Below, one piece after another: positions 20,168 to 31,328 of a DNA stretch of 43,762 bases. Positions within the stretch are counted from its first letter, which is position 1, and each line of letters starts with the position of its first letter. Location of the stretch: NCBI GenBank assembly GCA_024278275.1, contig JAJRTN010000164.1, positions 1 through 43,762 of the forward strand. Direction: 5' to 3'. A program made the position numbers and the translations under genes. This DNA is from Candidatus Hydrogenedentota bacterium. Its GTDB lineage: Bacteria > Hydrogenedentota > Hydrogenedentia > Hydrogenedentales > JAJRTN01. The notes under the pieces were generated by a model. The model saw only the letters and a list, made by a program, of their open reading frames with translations. It was not told the DNA's origin and searched no databases.

Positions 20168-20206
20168 GTGGACTCAGTGGACGAAGTTTCCGTCCACTGA
20201 GTCCAC
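20168..20206. repeat. Perfect 16-bp inverted repeat with 7-base loop
   Basis: GTGGACTCAGTGGACG and its exact reverse complement flank the loop AAGTTTC, and the arm itself contains the repeat GTGGAC-TCA-GTGGAC. It lies between the AroC-like gene and the lipoprotein gene on the minus strand. There is no T-tract on either side, so a simple intrinsic terminator is unlikely. Confidence 0.8.
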
Positions 20207-20234: not shown

Positions 20235-21569
20235 TCAGCCCTGCCGTTTGTCGGCAAAGAGCGCCTGGTAACCCAGGTGCATCATGTACTGGTCGAGAAC
20301 GATCATGGCGGTGAAGGCCTCGGCCACGGGCCACACCCTCGCCACGATGGTCGGGTCGCGGCGGGTGACGGCGCTCAAGGTGGCGTTTTCCTTCGACACC
20401 TTGTCGATGGTCTGCTGATCCTTGGCGATGGTGGGCGTGGGCTTCACGGCGATACGCGCCACCAGGGGCTGTCCGGTGGTGAGACCACCGGTCACGCCGC
20501 CCGCGCCATTGGAGAGGAATTTCACTTCCCCATTCTCCACGCGCATGGCATCGTTGGTCTCGGAGCCCTGCATGTCTTTCACGGCGTAGCCCGCGCCCAC
20601 TTCGACCGCCTTGATGGCGCCGATGCTGAGCATACGACCCAGTTCGCCGTCGATCTTGTTAAAGACCGGCTCGCCCATGCCCGCGGGAAGCCCCGTGGCA
20701 ACCACCTCGACCAGTCCGCCGCTCGAATCGCCTTCGTCGCGGATCTCGATGATGCGCCGCTCCATCTCGAAAGCGGCGTCGATATCGGGGCAGTTCATGG
20801 TGAAATGGATGCCGTGTTCCTCGCGAATCCTTTCGAAATCCACTTCCTCCTTCATTTCACGGATGTCGAGCAGGTTCTTCTCCAGTTCCGCGATGACGGC
20901 CATCTTCTCCAGGAAGCGCATGCCCTGCTTGATACGGCCCTGTCGGAAGACCCAGTCGTAGATGGGGTCATACTGGGTGCGTACTCGGCGGAAGGTGTCC
21001 ACCTGCTTTTTCGCCGTCGCCAGATCCACCTCCGCGGCGCGGACGCCGGCGGCCTCCTTCACGTAGGAGAAGACCTCGATGCCGTGCTCTTTGAGGATGC
21101 GCCGCGCCACCGCGCCCGCCGCGACGATGGTCGAGGTGTAGCGTCCGCTGAAAAATCCCGCGCCGATGGCGTCGTCCCACTCGCCGTACTTCTGATAGGA
21201 GGCATAGGAGGCATGGCCCGGCCGGGGGGTGCGGTTGGTCACCTGGTACTGCTCGATGTGCTCGAAATGGCGATCCACGTTCGGAATGAGGATGACGAAG
21301 GGCGTGCCGTTCGTAAAACCCGCGTTGGTGAATCCGGGCATGGTGTCCGCGGCGTTGACGCCGCTGTAAATGACGGGCACGTCCGCTTCGCGCCGGGGCG
21401 AAGCCAGCTTGCTTTGTCCCGGCTTGCGCGTCAGCAATGCCTCGTAGATCTCGGCTTCGTTAATGAGTAGTCCCGGCGGCACGCCCTGCAGGACCGTCGT
21501 CAGGCCCTCCTGGTAGCTTCCCCCGGCGACGGTGGCCTGGAACAAGGTGCCATAACTGCATCCCAACAT
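20235..21569 (-). CDS. Divergent chorismate-synthase-like protein with altered active site
   Basis: 444 residues against about 360 for normal AroC. The fold is evident: SYGTLFQATVAG-SY near the start, RPGHASYASYQKYG near residue 116, PAGMGEPVFNKID near residue 300, SNGAGGVTGGLTTGQP near residue 350, and RRDPTI-ARVWPVAEAF near residue 405. The usual N-terminal GESHG, which holds a catalytic His, reads GGSYQ, the GGRSSARET loop reads AGFFSGRYT, and the GRHDP motif reads RRDP. A charged helical insertion of roughly 65 residues lies around 175-265. It may have lost or changed chorismate synthase activity. GGGAG lies 9 bases before the ATG. No other shikimate gene is in the window. Confidence 0.8.
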   Translation of the reverse strand: MLGCSYGTLFQATVAGGSYQEGLTTVLQGVPPGLLINEAEIYEALLTRKPGQSKLASPRREADVPVIYSGVNAADTMPGFTNAGFTNGTPFVILIPNVDRHFEHIEQYQVTNRTPRPGHASYASYQKYGEWDDAIGAGFFSGRYTSTIVAAGAVARRILKEHGIEVFSYVKEAAGVRAAEVDLATAKKQVDTFRRVRTQYDPIYDWVFRQGRIKQGMRFLEKMAVIAELEKNLLDIREMKEEVDFERIREEHGIHFTMNCPDIDAAFEMERRIIEIRDEGDSSGGLVEVVATGLPAGMGEPVFNKIDGELGRMLSIGAIKAVEVGAGYAVKDMQGSETNDAMRVENGEVKFLSNGAGGVTGGLTTGQPLVARIAVKPTPTIAKDQQTIDKVSKENATLSAVTRRDPTIVARVWPVAEAFTAMIVLDQYMMHLGYQALFADKRQG

Positions 21570-21656: not shown

Positions 21657-21809
21657 GCATCGCCGTACCCTCGTACACGGACCGGGAACACGGGAAAACA
21701 GGAACGGCCAAGGCCCCGTAGCGGAACATCCGGGAACACCCATGCAACAGCCAAACCACCTGTGCTAAGGTCTGCCCGGCATGGAGCCCAAAAGAAGGAG
21801 AGAAGACGA

Positions 21810-24800
21810 ATGTTCAAGTGGTTGTTGGCAATCAGCATGACCGGAGGATGGCTGTTGTGTGTCCTCGCCCAAGGCGCGGAGCCTTCCCCGGCGCCACGGA
21901 TCAGGGGTGTGCAGGGCGTGGAACCCCTGATTGCGCGGTTCGACGTGATTGACTTCCAGGCCGATCCCACGGGGAAGCGGGATTCGACCACTTCATTTCA
22001 GCGGGCGCTGGATGCCGCCCATGATGTCGGCGGCGCGGTGGTGTTCGTCCCCCGGGGCCGGTACCGTTTCGATGGGACGGTGGAGATCCCTACGGCGGTC
22101 ACCCTTCGTGGCGAGCAGGGCGCTGACGGCGTGCCGCGACTGCTGGCCTACGCGGACCGTGGCCGGACGGAAGGCCCTTCATTTATCCGTATGCACCCCT
22201 GTTCCGGATTGCTGAACTTCGAGGTTTTCCATCCCGAGCAGCGTGCCGACGCCATCGTTCCCTATCCCTGGTCCATCGAGCAAGTCGGCGGGGATAACAT
22301 CACGGTGGAGAACGTGACCCTCGTCAATGCGTACCAGGGCATCAGGATCGGCCCCCAGACCAACGAACTGCACCTCCTGCGCAACGTTCGGGGTACCCCG
22401 TTGAAGACCGGCGTTTTCATCGACAGCACCTACGATATCGGACGGTTGGAGGGCGTGCATTTCGCGCCTTCCTATTGGGTGGACACGGGGCTTTCCTCAG
22501 CGGACGGGGAAAAGTTGAAGCGCTGGATGATGGAAAACGGCCGGGCCGTGATCATGGGCCGGTCCGATTGGGAATACATGAGCGATGTCCATATCGACGG
22601 CTATCGAACGGGCTTTACCGTGCTACACGGCAAGCAGGGCGCTTCCAACGCGCAATTCATGGGTTTTGTCATCGAGAATTGCGTCGAAGCCGTGCGCGTG
22701 GAAAAGACCGATACCATCGGACTCTCCTTCACCGATGGGCGCTTCACCGCGCCGAACCGCCCGGACGCCGTGTTGGTGCGTGTCACGGAAACCTTTACCG
22801 AGGGGGCCTTGCAGTTCCATCACTGCCTGTTCACACAGCGGGGAAACACAGGGCTGGAGCTGAAGGGCATGGGCGCGGTTTCCTTCCAGGACTGCTGGTT
22901 TGCGGACGAGGCGGGCCTGGAAGGGGCCACGGTTATTGATGCCACCTCTTCGGCATTGGGCTTCCTGGAGAACTATTTCGAAGGATCCCGCCCGCCGGTG
23001 ATTCGCGCGGCGAAGGCGACCAAGGCGTTTACGTTTACCGGCAACCGCGCCAGTCAGCCGATAATTCGCGGCGCGGGCGCGTTGCCGGCGGAATTGCCCC
23101 ATGGGGGCGCGGCCACCGAGGACCTCGCGGCCTGGCGTGAACGTTTACACCGGGGCGCGCCCGCTTTCCAGGGCGCGGTCACCACGGCCAGGCTTCATGT
23201 CGTGGAGCTTCCCGCGCCACCGGGAAGCGATGCCACCGGTGCCATTCAATCCAGGCTCGACGCGGCCCGTGCAGCGGGGGGCATCGTGTATCTGCCCGCC
23301 GGGGATTACCGGATCGAGGGCACGCTTGTTGTGCCCTCGGGCGTGGAACTGCGCGGGATCTGGGACGTGCCGCACCACACCCTGGGCAAGGGAACGGTGC
23401 TGCTGGCCGTGGGCGGCAAAGGCGAGGCGGACGGCGTCCCGCTCATCACGCTGGAGCCGAAGGCGGGGGTTCGGGGCATCACGGTCTACTACCCGGAACA
23501 GGATTTTCGAGCTGTTCAGCCCTATCCCTGGACCATTCGCGGCTTGGGCGAGGGCGTGTACGCCATCAACGTGACCATGGCGAACACCTACCAGGGCATT
23601 GATTTCGCCACTTACCCTTGTGACCGTCATTTTATTGACTATGCGGCGGGCGCGCCGCTGAAGACGGGCATTCGCGTGAGCGGAAAACACGGCGTGGTAA
23701 AGAACATGCAGTTCAACCCGCACTACTGGTCGCGCTGTACCTACCCCGGTCGTCCCGATGAAAGGGGGACCGAGTTCCGGCAGGTATGGGACCAGATGAT
23801 CGGCGAGATGGACGCGCTGGTGGTCGCCGGGGCGCGGGACGAATTCCTCTTCGGCAACTTTGTTTTCGCGGCGCGTAACGGTCTGCGTTTCGTCGAGCAG
23901 AACGGTATCGCGCCGACGGCGCTGGTCATCGCCCACGGCAGCGACGCGACCGATGTGTGTGTTCGTATCGACGCGGCGGGGGAGGGTGGAATCAAGCTGG
24001 TGAACTTCCAGGGCGCGTGCGCCCACGGCAAGCAGGATCAGGCCTATATCATGGTCGCGCCCGGGGCCGGGGGGCGGGTCGAGATGAACAACGCGCTCCT
24101 TTGGGGCCAGCCTAAGCGCGGGGTTGTCACGGCGGGTAAGGAGGTCATTCTGCGGCAACTCCACTTCGTCGAGACCGGCGAACCGTGTGTTGATCTCCAG
24201 GGCGGCAACCTGTGCCTGGAGAGCGTCCTCTTCCGAACGCCCTGCGACGCGGAGATACGGCAGGACGGCGGCACGCTGACCGCGCGGGGCAACATGGCCG
24301 CTGATTTCTTCAACATCACCACCCGGAAGGGAACGGTCGCGCCCCAATCCGGGGGCAACGTCAGCCTGCTTGAAGGTTCTCTCGCGGGGTGGGAAAAGGC
24401 CCAATTGCGCCACTACCGGATGGCCTTCGGCGACGGCGGAACGGAATACCGCGCCAACTGGTATGGCGCCGAGCCGGCCAGCGAGTGGAAAAGCGACGAC
24501 AAGAAACAATGGTCCAAGCCCGGGGCCAGGGTTTACCTGCCCGTGCTGCCCGGCACGCGCTACACCATCGCGCTGGATGCGCGTGTGCCCGGAGAGGCCC
24601 TGGAGCCCGGTTCCGGACTCTACGTCGGCGGACGGTGCATCCTGCCCATTGCGAAGGCGGGCATCGGGATCATTGAGGGGAAATTCCTCACGGGCGACGA
24701 GCGGTACATTGTGCTGGAGGTGCGTTGCCGATCCTGGAAACCCATTGACCACCTGCAAGGAAGCCAGGACAGTCGCGATCTCGGGATCGCCGTGCGCAAC

Positions 24801-24869
24801 CTGACCCTGCGTGCGGCGGGCGCTGGTGACAGGATCTTCGATGTCAATACTGGCGACTGGTTGGAGTAA
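21810..24869 (+). CDS. Secreted protein with two tandem pectate-lyase-like beta-helix domains
   Basis: 1019 residues with a signal peptide at 1-23. Two homologous halves follow. Each opens with a pectate-lyase-3 (GH55-like) start, DSTTSFQRALDAAHDVGGAV near residue 60 and DATGAIQSRLDAARAAGGIV near residue 475. Each continues with VFVPRGRYRF or VYLPAGDYRI, and each contains YPW-(S/T)-I followed about 15 residues later by a VT-(L/M)-x-N-x-YQGI motif. The last 170 residues form a separate, probably beta, domain. Such proteins are lyases, hydrolases or epimerases of acidic polysaccharides, but catalytic residues cannot be named. AAGGAG precedes the ATG at 21810. It is monocistronic and convergent with the cohesin cluster. 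Confidence 0.85.
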   Translation: MFKWLLAISMTGGWLLCVLAQGAEPSPAPRIRGVQGVEPLIARFDVIDFQADPTGKRDSTTSFQRALDAAHDVGGAVVFVPRGRYRFDGTVEIPTAVTLRGEQGADGVPRLLAYADRGRTEGPSFIRMHPCSGLLNFEVFHPEQRADAIVPYPWSIEQVGGDNITVENVTLVNAYQGIRIGPQTNELHLLRNVRGTPLKTGVFIDSTYDIGRLEGVHFAPSYWVDTGLSSADGEKLKRWMMENGRAVIMGRSDWEYMSDVHIDGYRTGFTVLHGKQGASNAQFMGFVIENCVEAVRVEKTDTIGLSFTDGRFTAPNRPDAVLVRVTETFTEGALQFHHCLFTQRGNTGLELKGMGAVSFQDCWFADEAGLEGATVIDATSSALGFLENYFEGSRPPVIRAAKATKAFTFTGNRASQPIIRGAGALPAELPHGGAATEDLAAWRERLHRGAPAFQGAVTTARLHVVELPAPPGSDATGAIQSRLDAARAAGGIVYLPAGDYRIEGTLVVPSGVELRGIWDVPHHTLGKGTVLLAVGGKGEADGVPLITLEPKAGVRGITVYYPEQDFRAVQPYPWTIRGLGEGVYAINVTMANTYQGIDFATYPCDRHFIDYAAGAPLKTGIRVSGKHGVVKNMQFNPHYWSRCTYPGRPDERGTEFRQVWDQMIGEMDALVVAGARDEFLFGNFVFAARNGLRFVEQNGIAPTALVIAHGSDATDVCVRIDAAGEGGIKLVNFQGACAHGKQDQAYIMVAPGAGGRVEMNNALLWGQPKRGVVTAGKEVILRQLHFVETGEPCVDLQGGNLCLESVLFRTPCDAEIRQDGGTLTARGNMAADFFNITTRKGTVAPQSGGNVSLLEGSLAGWEKAQLRHYRMAFGDGGTEYRANWYGAEPASEWKSDDKKQWSKPGARVYLPVLPGTRYTIALDARVPGEALEPGSGLYVGGRCILPIAKAGIGIIEGKFLTGDERYIVLEVRCRSWKPIDHLQGSQDSRDLGIAVRNLTLRAAGAGDRIFDVNTGDWLE

Positions 24870-24932: not shown

Positions 24933-26483
24933 TCAGCGCCGCCCCGCTGTTGTGGACAGGCGGAAATAACCACCATGGCGGATACGGGAGCCCAGGTAGG
25001 TGACGTGGGGCAACATTAATCGGAGGTATGGCTCGGGAACGAGCCAGCCTTCAACCGATTCACCGGGGTACCACGCACCCGTGTCGAGACGGTACTCGAC
25101 GGTGGCCTTTGCAGGGTCAAGATCGGGTGATAGGGGAATCCAGACACGTCGGGGTGTTTCGTATACCGTGCATGGGACCGTAAGATAGGCATATGGGCGC
25201 GCCGGGATGGTTTCGATGGGGATCACGTTTTCACCCGCATCAAGCGGCGTGTAGTCCCCCCCGGGAACAGGCTGTTTCACGGGCTCCCCGTTGTATTGTT
25301 CCGCCCGGGGCATGAAGCAGAAAGTGGCCGCGACGACGGGGACCTCGTCTCCGAGGATGTCGAACGCGCCGGCCAGCAGAATGACGGTTTTACCTTCTTC
25401 CGGGGCGGTTCGCGGTTGGAAAAGGACCCACAGGTCGTTTTCCAGGCTCCCTGCGGCTTGGAAGGATAGGGCGAAACGGTCACGGGATATTCCGAAAATG
25501 CCCGTCCAGAGGGTGGCGGAGTCAATCGCCGCCGAACCGCGCAAACGCAGTGCGGGCGTTTCATTCGGCAAGACGATATGCCGGCCCTCGTCGTCCGTCG
25601 TAACGGGCAGCACGGTTTCGTGGACGAATTCGGATTGCCCTGGCAGGGAGACAAAGGCTCCAAAAGCCACCCGACGGGCAACCGGGGTGTCGCGCGGGAT
25701 GTCACCGGCGGTTTGCCCGATCATGGAAGACCGCCGGAAAAACACGGGCGGATGAGCCGCCGATGGCGTCTCGTGTTTCACGATGACGCGGGCGGCGAGC
25801 GGCGCTTGGGGCGGGACCAAAGGCACGCCCAGTCGCGCCGGGCCGCTGACGGCCTCGACCCGCATGGGGGTATCGAGATTCGGGGTTTCGGCCGTTTCAC
25901 CGGATAGGAGCTTGAGGGTGCCGCCGGTGTTCAATACGGTCCGCCCTTCGGCCACGGTGTTAAAGGGGAAGGTGGGCGTCCCCCACTCCGCGCCGGTATG
26001 GTCGAAATCGACCCAGCTTTCAGGGCCGCGCACGTGGACATAGCCCGGCAGCCCGCTGGATGCAATGACGACGCCAAAGGGATCCGATACGGAGGTGTTG
26101 ACCACAGCTACCGTCAGCGAGATGGCCGTGACGCCGGAGGCCACGTCGAAGGATGCCAGCACGACATCGCCGTCGGGGATGACATTCTGGTTCAGTCCCG
26201 ATACGAGCACGCGGACGGCGGACGGGGAAAGACTGTACCACCCAACGCTCTTGTTCGCGGCGATGGCGGAAGGACCGGCGGTCATATTCACGGGCGTCAG
26301 CCAGGTCTCGTCGAAGGTCAGGTCAAAGCCCAGGGCAGAGGGTTCTTCCCCGTCGGCCGCGCTCAGTGCCACAGGCACGACAATCCCCGTCACGCCGGGT
26401 TGTGTTGCCGTTTGCCCTCCCGTGAGGGTGGCGCCAAAAGTCACGACATGGATGATCACTATCGACAGGATCGCAAGCCGCAT
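24933..26483 (-). CDS. Secreted cohesin-like protein with large C-terminal region
   Basis: 516 residues with a signal peptide at 1-18. A cohesin-like domain covers about 18-150 and shows the cluster motif VRVLVSGLNQNVIPDG at 91-105 and SDPFG near 133. Then comes WVDFDHTGAEWGTPTFPFNT at about 157-176, followed by VAEG and SGETAETPNLDTPMRVEA; I recognise this pattern from secreted repeat proteins of this bacterial group, where it opens a short beta-helical segment. The last 300 residues are unassigned. There is no C-terminal membrane helix, unlike the other cohesin proteins of the cluster. GGAG lies 8 bases before the ATG at 26483. It is the last gene of the cluster, 137 bases after the previous one. 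Confidence 0.75.
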   Translation of the reverse strand: MRLAILSIVIIHVVTFGATLTGGQTATQPGVTGIVVPVALSAADGEEPSALGFDLTFDETWLTPVNMTAGPSAIAANKSVGWYSLSPSAVRVLVSGLNQNVIPDGDVVLASFDVASGVTAISLTVAVVNTSVSDPFGVVIASSGLPGYVHVRGPESWVDFDHTGAEWGTPTFPFNTVAEGRTVLNTGGTLKLLSGETAETPNLDTPMRVEAVSGPARLGVPLVPPQAPLAARVIVKHETPSAAHPPVFFRRSSMIGQTAGDIPRDTPVARRVAFGAFVSLPGQSEFVHETVLPVTTDDEGRHIVLPNETPALRLRGSAAIDSATLWTGIFGISRDRFALSFQAAGSLENDLWVLFQPRTAPEEGKTVILLAGAFDILGDEVPVVAATFCFMPRAEQYNGEPVKQPVPGGDYTPLDAGENVIPIETIPARPYAYLTVPCTVYETPRRVWIPLSPDLDPAKATVEYRLDTGAWYPGESVEGWLVPEPYLRLMLPHVTYLGSRIRHGGYFRLSTTAGRR

Positions 26484-26619
26484 GAAACGCGCTCCGCCAA
26501 CATCAAAATGCCATTTAATCCAAGGAGGGGCGCAGTGGCCGGCAGAACGCCCGCCACCACGCCCCCATGGGTGCAACGTGTCATGTCCGGCCCCCAGGGA
26601 GGCCGAATCGTTGTCCGTG

Positions 26620-29487: not shown

Positions 29488-30141
29488 TTAGGTTTCCCTT
29501 CTTTTCTTGACGTGCAGACGCCGGACCGGGCGCGGCTTCCGCCTTTTCCGGGCGACTCTCGTGATGGCGAGTATGAAGCCGCAAAGCAGTATGAACAGGG
29601 GCAGGGCCATCCAGGGGATGGGTGCCCCCTGGGAGATGTGTTGACGGAGGCGAATGGGTTGGGCCGCCTGTGCGCCGGCGAAGGTCACGGGTATGGGCGT
29701 GCCAAAGGGGTCACTGAAGATGATATCGCCCAAACCGGCTATTTCCGGCGAGTCGGAGCTTCCTTCGGGCACCCGGAACACCAGGTTTGCCACCACCCCT
29801 TCCCCGATAATGTTTTGATTGAGGCCGACGAGTATTAAGCGAACTTTCGCGCGGCCCAGGGGGTTGGCGCTCAGGATCTTGGCGGCGGCCTTTCCCACCG
29901 GTCCAATTTCGGCCTTCTCGTATTCCAGGGCTGTGTCCTTCAGCAATATATCGCACTGCAAACCGGCCACTTCTTCACCAGGGGCCGTATCCAGTTGAAG
30001 AGGGATCGTCAGGGTACCATCGGTTCCGCCAACGATGGGGGCGCCCAGGGTAAGATTCGCGGCCCGGGCCGCGTCGGGGATCATCCCCAGGGCCGCGGCC
30101 AGTATGGCGATCATGGCAAGCCTGTACCCGTTCCCCTTCAT
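29488..30141 (-). CDS. Cohesin-like protein with C-terminal membrane anchor
   Basis: 217 residues: signal peptide 1-27 (ARA cleavage), one cohesin-like domain at about 28-160 with VRLILVGLNQNIIGEG at 100-115 and SDPFGTPIPV near 143, then a single membrane helix at 175-194 and a strongly basic tail (RKRRKPRPVRR). The whole protein is thus little more than a membrane-anchored cohesin. Its ATG overlaps the stop of the previous cohesin gene (ATGA), and its TAA lies 3 bases before the GTG of the next. A partner for the dockerin proteins is the natural inference. Confidence 0.82.
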   Translation of the reverse strand: MKGNGYRLAMIAILAAALGMIPDAARAANLTLGAPIVGGTDGTLTIPLQLDTAPGEEVAGLQCDILLKDTALEYEKAEIGPVGKAAAKILSANPLGRAKVRLILVGLNQNIIGEGVVANLVFRVPEGSSDSPEIAGLGDIIFSDPFGTPIPVTFAGAQAAQPIRLRQHISQGAPIPWMALPLFILLCGFILAITRVARKRRKPRPVRRLHVKKRRET

Positions 30142-31202
30142 CGCGGCCGTCTCCTCGACGGAAGCCTGTTGAAGATGAAAGCCCGGATGCCGAAAATAGC
30201 GAAAAAGGAAACGAGTCCGGCGGCCAAGGCGATGGCCCAGGAGGCCGGTTCACGCTTTGGCGAGGGGAAGGTTTCAGAAAACCAGATCGCTCCTCCCGCC
30301 CGGTCCGGGCGGGATGCCGTGGTGACGGCGTTGAGGGCCAAATGGGTCTTCGCGAAGGTATGGCCGCCCTCCTTCCCGGGGGGGGCGTAAGGGGGGCGTG
30401 CCGGGCGGTAGCGTTTGCGGTTTATGGCTCCCCCGCGCGCCTCTCGTGCCGTTGGCCCCGTATTCCGCGACAGGGCCGGATTTGTGCCGGAGCGTGGGAT
30501 CCCATGCCCGCCGGACTGGCCTCGTGTCGCCCTTTCCGGCCCGCGGCGTGCCGGGCCCCTTTCGCCACCGGACACCAGGCCGCCCGAACCGGCGAACGCG
30601 CCCGAAGAAAGGCTTTCCCCCGCGGCGTTATCAATCGGTTTCATGGACTGGCCGGCATCCGCCGCCGGGGACTCCGCCCCGTTCGTCGGTTGTTGCGCCT
30701 CTTCCGGGGGGGCCTCACCGGCGTGGGCTTCCTGCAATGCGTCGTCCACGGGTTCTCCCAATGGATCGGAGAGCAAAGGATTTTCGATTTCAAAAATGTC
30801 GTTGCTCTGTTTGGCGCCAAGGGGCTTGAGGTAGATTCGCGCCACCGTGCCCGTTTCGATAGTATTCTGGTTGAAACCGGTGATCAGCACCCGCACGGTC
30901 CCCATGCCTTGCGCGGCGAACTGCACCTCCTTACCTGCCTGATCGGCGGCGTCGCCGGAAAAGACATCCACCACTTCGTAGGCCTCGGGGTCGAAGGTAA
31001 GGTCGAAGAGGATTCCCGCCACGTCATCGGCCGTGTCCGCCGTGAGGGACACGGGAACGACAAGATAGCCCGCGTCGACACCGACAGGATCCGGGGAAAC
31101 CACCGCGGCAACGGCGATCACCGTAAAGAGGGCGGCGCACAGGGCGCCTGCCAGCAGGACGTAGCCCCGCTTATCCCGAAATACCGGTTCCACAAGCATC
31201 AT
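30138..31202 (-). CDS. Cohesin-like protein with long disordered linker and C-terminal anchor
   Basis: 354 residues. A hydrophobic segment at about 12-35 is a signal peptide or anchor. The cohesin-like domain covers about 38-160 with VRVLITGFNQNTIETG near residue 103 and SDPLGEP near 140. Residues 160-310 are rich in Ala, Gly, Pro and Arg and look disordered. A membrane helix at about 320-340 is followed by a basic end (LPSRRRPR). The start may be the ATG at 31202 or the next codon; the ribosome site is weak. It overlaps the downstream cohesin gene by 4 bases. Confidence 0.75.
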   Translation of the reverse strand: MMLVEPVFRDKRGYVLLAGALCAALFTVIAVAAVVSPDPVGVDAGYLVVPVSLTADTADDVAGILFDLTFDPEAYEVVDVFSGDAADQAGKEVQFAAQGMGTVRVLITGFNQNTIETGTVARIYLKPLGAKQSNDIFEIENPLLSDPLGEPVDDALQEAHAGEAPPEEAQQPTNGAESPAADAGQSMKPIDNAAGESLSSGAFAGSGGLVSGGERGPARRGPERATRGQSGGHGIPRSGTNPALSRNTGPTAREARGGAINRKRYRPARPPYAPPGKEGGHTFAKTHLALNAVTTASRPDRAGGAIWFSETFPSPKREPASWAIALAAGLVSFFAIFGIRAFIFNRLPSRRRPR

Positions 31203-31328
31203 GCTACATTTACCTGGCCCCAAGGGGCAATGTTTCTTCACCAGGGGAACGGAAACATTCCGATGAGGCCGCGTGCTTCGTGAACCCTTCGCCATCCGGT
31301 GGCGGCGATGTATCGCGCGTGGCCTCGG

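Follow-up and report, generated by a model that had tools for sequence, protein, structure and literature searches.

Chorismate synthase (AroC, EC 4.2.3.5) catalyzes the last step of the pathway to the aromatic amino acids, in which EPSP is converted to chorismate and phosphate. In N. crassa numbering, the literature attributes the protonation of the leaving phosphate to His17, that of the flavin to His106 and the priming of N5 to Asp367 (PMC3509576, PMC2386126, PMC7144000). The phosphate-side histidine, which belongs to the GESHG motif, is stated to be present across all known species (PMC2386126). In the literature it passes for invariant and is taken to donate the proton to the departing phosphate, in a reaction of unusual chemistry. 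A set of arginines has been assigned a role in EPSP binding (PMC11633415) and is numbered here after the S. pneumoniae structure 1QXO. AroCs also split into monofunctional and bifunctional classes, the latter catalyzing the NAD(P)H-dependent reduction of FMN (PMC7144000), a capacity that sequence does not yet allow one to predict (PMC2386126).

We examined a 43,762-nucleotide stretch of DNA (the window) from a Candidatus Hydrogenedentota bacterium genome that is 96% complete. An ATG-started open reading frame at 20235-21569 on the minus strand, preceded by a Shine-Dalgarno-like GGGAG, encodes 444 amino acids without an internal stop. The protein matches the AroC family profile at full length (PF01264; 2.2e-92, 309.7 bits, residues 10-429, model positions 1-327 of 327) and scores 316 bits against TIGR00033 aroC, above the cut-off of 212, while narrowly missing NF003793 (318.5 vs 321). 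Automatic annotation would, from the PF01264 and TIGR00033 matches, label it chorismate synthase. The AF2 model depended on its input, with a pLDDT of 70 from an alignment of orthologues only and of 94.3 (pTM 0.94) from the deep alignment that we used instead. The first 28 Foldseek matches to this model reached TMt values of up to 0.93 and, like every PDB match with an E value below 0.001 (best E 2e-28), were chorismate synthases. The predicted fold is that of an intact AroC.

Within this fold the signature motifs are changed, and an earlier note on this DNA had read them correctly. All on the minus strand and in alignment with 1QXO, GGSYQ (residues 16-20; 21510-21524) replaces GESHG, RPGHAS (residues 116-121; 21207-21224) keeps the EPSP-binding Arg and the FMN-protonating His and carries Ser for the Asp of HADY, GAGFFSGRYT (residues 136-145; 21135-21164) is the counterpart of GGGRSSARET and retains the substrate-binding Ser and Arg, and TRRDPT (residues 402-407; 20349-20366) is the counterpart of GRHDPC, with the catalytic Asp405 and Arg403 kept and His404 changed to Arg. 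GGSYQ, GAGFFSGRYT and TRRDPT are invariant or nearly so across all orthologues of the window protein, which argues that the changes are not sequencing errors. We also rejected an assembly error, because identical motifs occur in dozens of independent genomes, and a degenerate copy or pseudogene, given the intact frame, the invariant motifs and a dN/dS of about 0.1. The latter ranged from about 0.10 to 0.14 against the orthologues of the Hydrogenedentota type and indicates purifying selection. The FFSGR stretch was considered as a novelty and discarded, since ordinary single-copy AroCs that contain the histidine carry HFSGRLT or FFSGRMT. The genuine peculiarities are Tyr19 and the T-R-x-x-T pattern within TRRDPT.

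Matching residues to 1QXO by alignment located the change in the active site. Tyr19 aligns with His10 of 1QXO and His17 of N. crassa and is Tyr in 37 of 37 GGSYQ-type proteins, the position being His in 93 of 93 canonical ones. All other residues with an assigned role that we compared are invariant in the same 37 proteins: the EPSP-binding arginines (R39, R107, R134 and R337 of 1QXO and the Arg after GRHDP), S132 together with R134, and the equivalents of H110 and D339 (H119 and D405). From the known roles of these residues and their conservation, the changed catalytic residue is the phosphate-side one. The protein belongs to the AroC family by its fold, by its profile match and by most residues of the active site, and departs from it at the phosphate-side histidine. 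The replacement is accompanied by others, as six conserved positions, all inside signature motifs, shift together between 38 Tyr-type and 65 His-type proteins (H19Y, D121E/S, G137A, G402T, H404R and C407T). Position 404 is Arg in every Tyr-type protein (38/38) and in none of the His type (0/65), and position 121 is Asp in 65/65 His-type proteins and Glu or Ser in the Tyr type.

The charged helical insertion reported from the sequence proved real in the alignment, where it measures 63 residues (193-255; 20805-20993, minus strand) and is missing from every non-GGSYQ AroC. It lies within a four-helix stretch, residues 183-252, predicted by AF2 with a pLDDT mostly of 93-98 (helices 183-199, 202-209, 219-238 and 245-252). 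The Pfam scan of the window protein returned PF01264 as its sole match and no recognisable domain in the insert. A second insert that had escaped the earlier note, the 10 residues NAADTMPGFT (72-81; 21327-21356, minus strand), is shared by the whole GGSYQ clade.

Six peptide patterns taken from the window protein, which reach close relatives only, were run against 84,980 species genomes and recovered 29 orthologues (59-81% identical). The MAGs that carry them are assigned to Hydrogenedentota, Armatimonadota (Hebobacteria), Verrucomicrobiota, Planctomycetota, Bacteroidales and other groups; the label of any one MAG may be wrong. Calling types by match length (~1,255 nt with the insert vs 930-1,120 nt without), we found the GGSYQ type in 26 of 68 Hydrogenedentota genomes, in 9 of 151 genomes of the Armatimonadota, the phylum of Ca. 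Hebobacterum abditum (G007; 90.6% complete, PMC10290634), and in 20 of 148 relatives of the Bacteroidales genome G018. It also occurs in 9/289 Verrucomicrobiota genomes (the phylum of G009) and 11/294 genomes of the Planctomycetota (that of G004). One MAG, which may be mixed, holds two different GGSYQ-type copies (L156, G006:C9; and G006:C81) without an ordinary AroC. The gene for EPSP synthase, aroA, lies directly upstream in 31 of the 47 GGSYQ loci, and several of the exceptions are contig ends.

The GGSYQ protein is the only AroC in many of these bacteria, among them the closed Bacteroidales chromosome of G018 and a genome assembled as one 3.15-Mb contig (G196). With sole-copy genomes that are mostly MAGs, and with Fisher tests that treat genomes as independent although they are not, another AroC was absent from 9/9 GGSYQ genomes sampled in the Armatimonadota, where 11/142 other genomes had no AroC at all (2e-9), and an ordinary AroC from 7/9 Verrucomicrobiota carriers vs 2/280 others (4e-11), being nearly universal in the remainder of that phylum; the same test gave no or weak support in the Hydrogenedentota and the Bacteroidales family (1.0 and 0.04). 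In these two groups an ordinary AroC coexists in 22/26 and 16/20 carriers, respectively. The active-site residues are the same in sole-copy and two-copy carriers. The gene content of the sole-copy organisms indicates that they need chorismate, since 32 of the 33 sole-copy Tyr-type genomes examined encode Chorismate_bind enzymes (TrpE/PabB-type) and all 14 examined for aroA have it. The earlier note had named a genome with no other AroC, together with complementation of an aroC mutant, as the outcome that would speak against loss of function, and the genomic half of this was found in many orthologue genomes. As a separate observation, five sole-copy genomes with aroA and the GGSYQ-type aroC (G005, G014, G132, G170 and G196) gave no match to aroB (TIGR01357), which may reflect an alternative dehydroquinate synthase or missing sequence. 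The aroB match of G018 is broken, and this chromosome may have assembly or masking problems.

The genome of the window carries in addition a normal AroK-AroC fusion (contig 12, 28057-29055), with aroA about 1.5 kb upstream, and the window gene is therefore a second copy, a paralogue as had been suspected. In the tree all Tyr-type proteins form one clade with 100/100 support and the local AroK-AroC falls outside it. The window gene thus represents an old separate lineage, and we rejected a recent duplication of the local AroC. The end branch of the window copy is not accelerated (0.099). The sister group of the GGSYQ type consists of 15 single-copy AroCs of the Armatimonadota with GESYG, a Tyr for His in an otherwise ordinary motif without inserts. 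These are the sole AroCs in their genomes and 13 of 15 lie directly after aroA. Because this sister clade carries Tyr as well and is likewise the sole AroC, the residue is compatible with the job of a chorismate synthase. The tree proposed in the earlier note shows a distinct GGSYQ lineage, whose closest relatives argue against lost function. Of the statement that known enzymes need two conserved histidines, the replacement of the GESHG histidine was borne out but not the functional consequence, as genomes with the Tyr form as their sole AroC show that this histidine is hardly strictly defining for the family. Other variants were seen in passing. Two single-copy AroCs keep the histidine within altered flanks (GNSHD in L169 of G373; GASHD in L170 of G322), and a homologue with GEAKG, a disrupted PRPGH and a long branch (L161, G160:C39:57817-58758), present beside a normal AroC in its genome, is probably a degenerate or repurposed copy.

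The window gene is flanked on one side by genes for an endonuclease III, a CAAX-type membrane protease, a PfkB kinase and a lipoprotein, and on the other by one for a pectate-lyase-like protein. The description of a gene that stands alone with no shikimate gene nearby is accurate for this copy but not for most of its relatives, which have aroA directly upstream. A promoter of its own was not supported, as a sigma-70 search found no match for the gene; the intergenic DNA shared with its divergent neighbour, some 190 nt long, could accommodate one. About 30 nt past the stop codon, a perfect 15-bp inverted repeat (20169-20205, minus strand) that occurs once in the window could form a very stable hairpin (-33.9 kcal/mol, z -7.1) that lacks a clear T run, and could serve as a transcription end or a binding site. 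Elsewhere in the window, the divergently oriented gene at 21762-24869 encodes a long protein with two tandem pectate-lyase-like (RHGA/epimerase) stretches, and weak cohesin-domain matches occur in three proteins of one stretch (24933-26576, 29488-30141 and 30138-31295).

Taken together, genome distribution, sequence and structural model suggest that the protein of the window gene is a true chorismate synthase that depends on FMN and belongs to a separate Tyr-type lineage, a working enzyme, a reading to which we assign a probability of about 0.77. An active rather than a dead or repurposed protein is most likely because many bacteria have no AroC but the Tyr version. Against it stand the loss of the first catalytic histidine, the position of the window copy away from aroA and the redundancy with an ordinary AroC in this genome and in most Hydrogenedentota and Bacteroidales carriers. 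In such an enzyme Tyr19, the new Arg404 or both, with the existing phosphate-binding arginines, would take over the work of His10/His17 as an acid or a phosphate clamp, and the remaining steps would run as in an ordinary AroC. The lineage may have arisen beside aroA in Armatimonadota-like bacteria in the form of GESYG enzymes, then gained the helical insert to give the GGSYQ type and passed from phylum to phylum, sometimes with aroA and sometimes without it. In the genome of the window the Tyr-type protein would be a second isozyme next to the normal AroK-AroC, and conditions of flavin supply, oxygen or pathway branch are guesses at why both are kept.

A refinement of this reading gives the insert a function of its own. 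The protein would be a specialised isozyme with the same chemistry that serves conditions where the ordinary enzyme fails, and the insert would supply flavin reduction, docking to a flavin reductase or to EPSP synthase, or protection from oxygen. The confident fold of the insert, its conservation across the GGSYQ clade and its absence from the GESYG enzymes are consistent with such a role, as are the linkage to aroA and the existence of monofunctional and bifunctional AroCs (PMC7144000). Yet no domain was recognised in the insert, with PF01264 the only match to the protein, the sole-copy GESYG enzymes manage without it and bifunctionality escapes prediction from sequence (PMC2386126), so we regard this claim about the insert as doubtful. 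A more radical departure would be a shift, in two-copy genomes, to a different reaction, with EPSP or a close analogue as substrate, such as an altered elimination or rearrangement that yields a product for special metabolism, with the ordinary AroC making chorismate. A shifted function is possible in the two-copy Hydrogenedentota and Bacteroidales carriers because an ordinary AroC coexists there, and the joint change of six signature-motif positions, the inserts at 72-81 and 193-255 and the separation of the window copy from aroA would fit it. For such a reaction on EPSP or a related enolpyruvyl compound, the phosphate side might have been rebuilt by Tyr19, Ser121 and Arg404, and the insert might close the site or feed reduced flavin, a scheme we consider improbable. 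The shift itself is unlikely, as there are genomes in other phyla with the same conserved protein (~68-71% identical) and no further AroC, its active site does not differ between sole-copy and two-copy carriers, the window gene is under strong purifying selection with an unremarkable end branch, and no linked biosynthetic genes lie within the window. Far less credible still is a protein that has lost catalysis and acts as an FMN-binding regulator, or as a helper in mixed tetramers with the ordinary AroC; one of two histidines is indeed lost and the ordinary enzyme is present in this genome, but the Tyr type is the sole AroC of many genomes, purifying selection is strong, and the catalytic Asp, the flavin His and all EPSP-binding arginines are kept. 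Thus, the new reaction, FMN regulator or loss of function that the earlier note had drawn from the missing histidine is less likely, even in two-copy genomes, than a working chorismate synthase: orthologues with the same change are sole AroCs, mostly in an aroA-aroC pair, and a sister lineage of single-copy AroCs shares the replacement.

A literature search, with most subscription papers outside its reach, found no description of a Tyr-type AroC, of an AroC paralogue class or of a replacement of the histidine. The Tyr-type AroCs apparently form an unnoticed enzyme class, concealed by the annotation 'chorismate synthase'. With whole lineages that have no other AroC, this natural Tyr clade opens the role of the residue to direct testing, and it is relevant to inhibitor design and to pathway calls in MAGs. 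Further, it accounts for the second AroC copies of Hydrogenedentota and Bacteroidales, which belong to a distinct, old lineage instead of stemming from recent duplication.

Among known systems, the canonical AroCs (1QXO, 1UM0, 4LJ2 and 1R52) share with the window protein the fold, the FMN site, the EPSP-binding arginines, the flavin-protonating His and the catalytic Asp. They differ in the GESHG motif, where the window protein has Gly for Glu, Tyr for His and Gln for the second Gly, in HADY (HASY) and GRHDPC (TRRDPT), and in the absence of the inserts of 10 and 63 residues. The 'HFSGRLT'-type AroCs of the Bacteroidota (L041, ~333 aa) and L187 share the F-S-G-R variant of the third motif, but they keep the catalytic His (GESHG; GTSHG in L187) and GRHD and form a separate clade in the tree. 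Closest are the GESYG-type AroCs (for example, L173 in G222), which have Tyr at the same place, TRRDPT and usually aroA directly upstream, yet retain GESxG and GAGRASGRET, lack the inserts and are 41-48% identical to the window protein.
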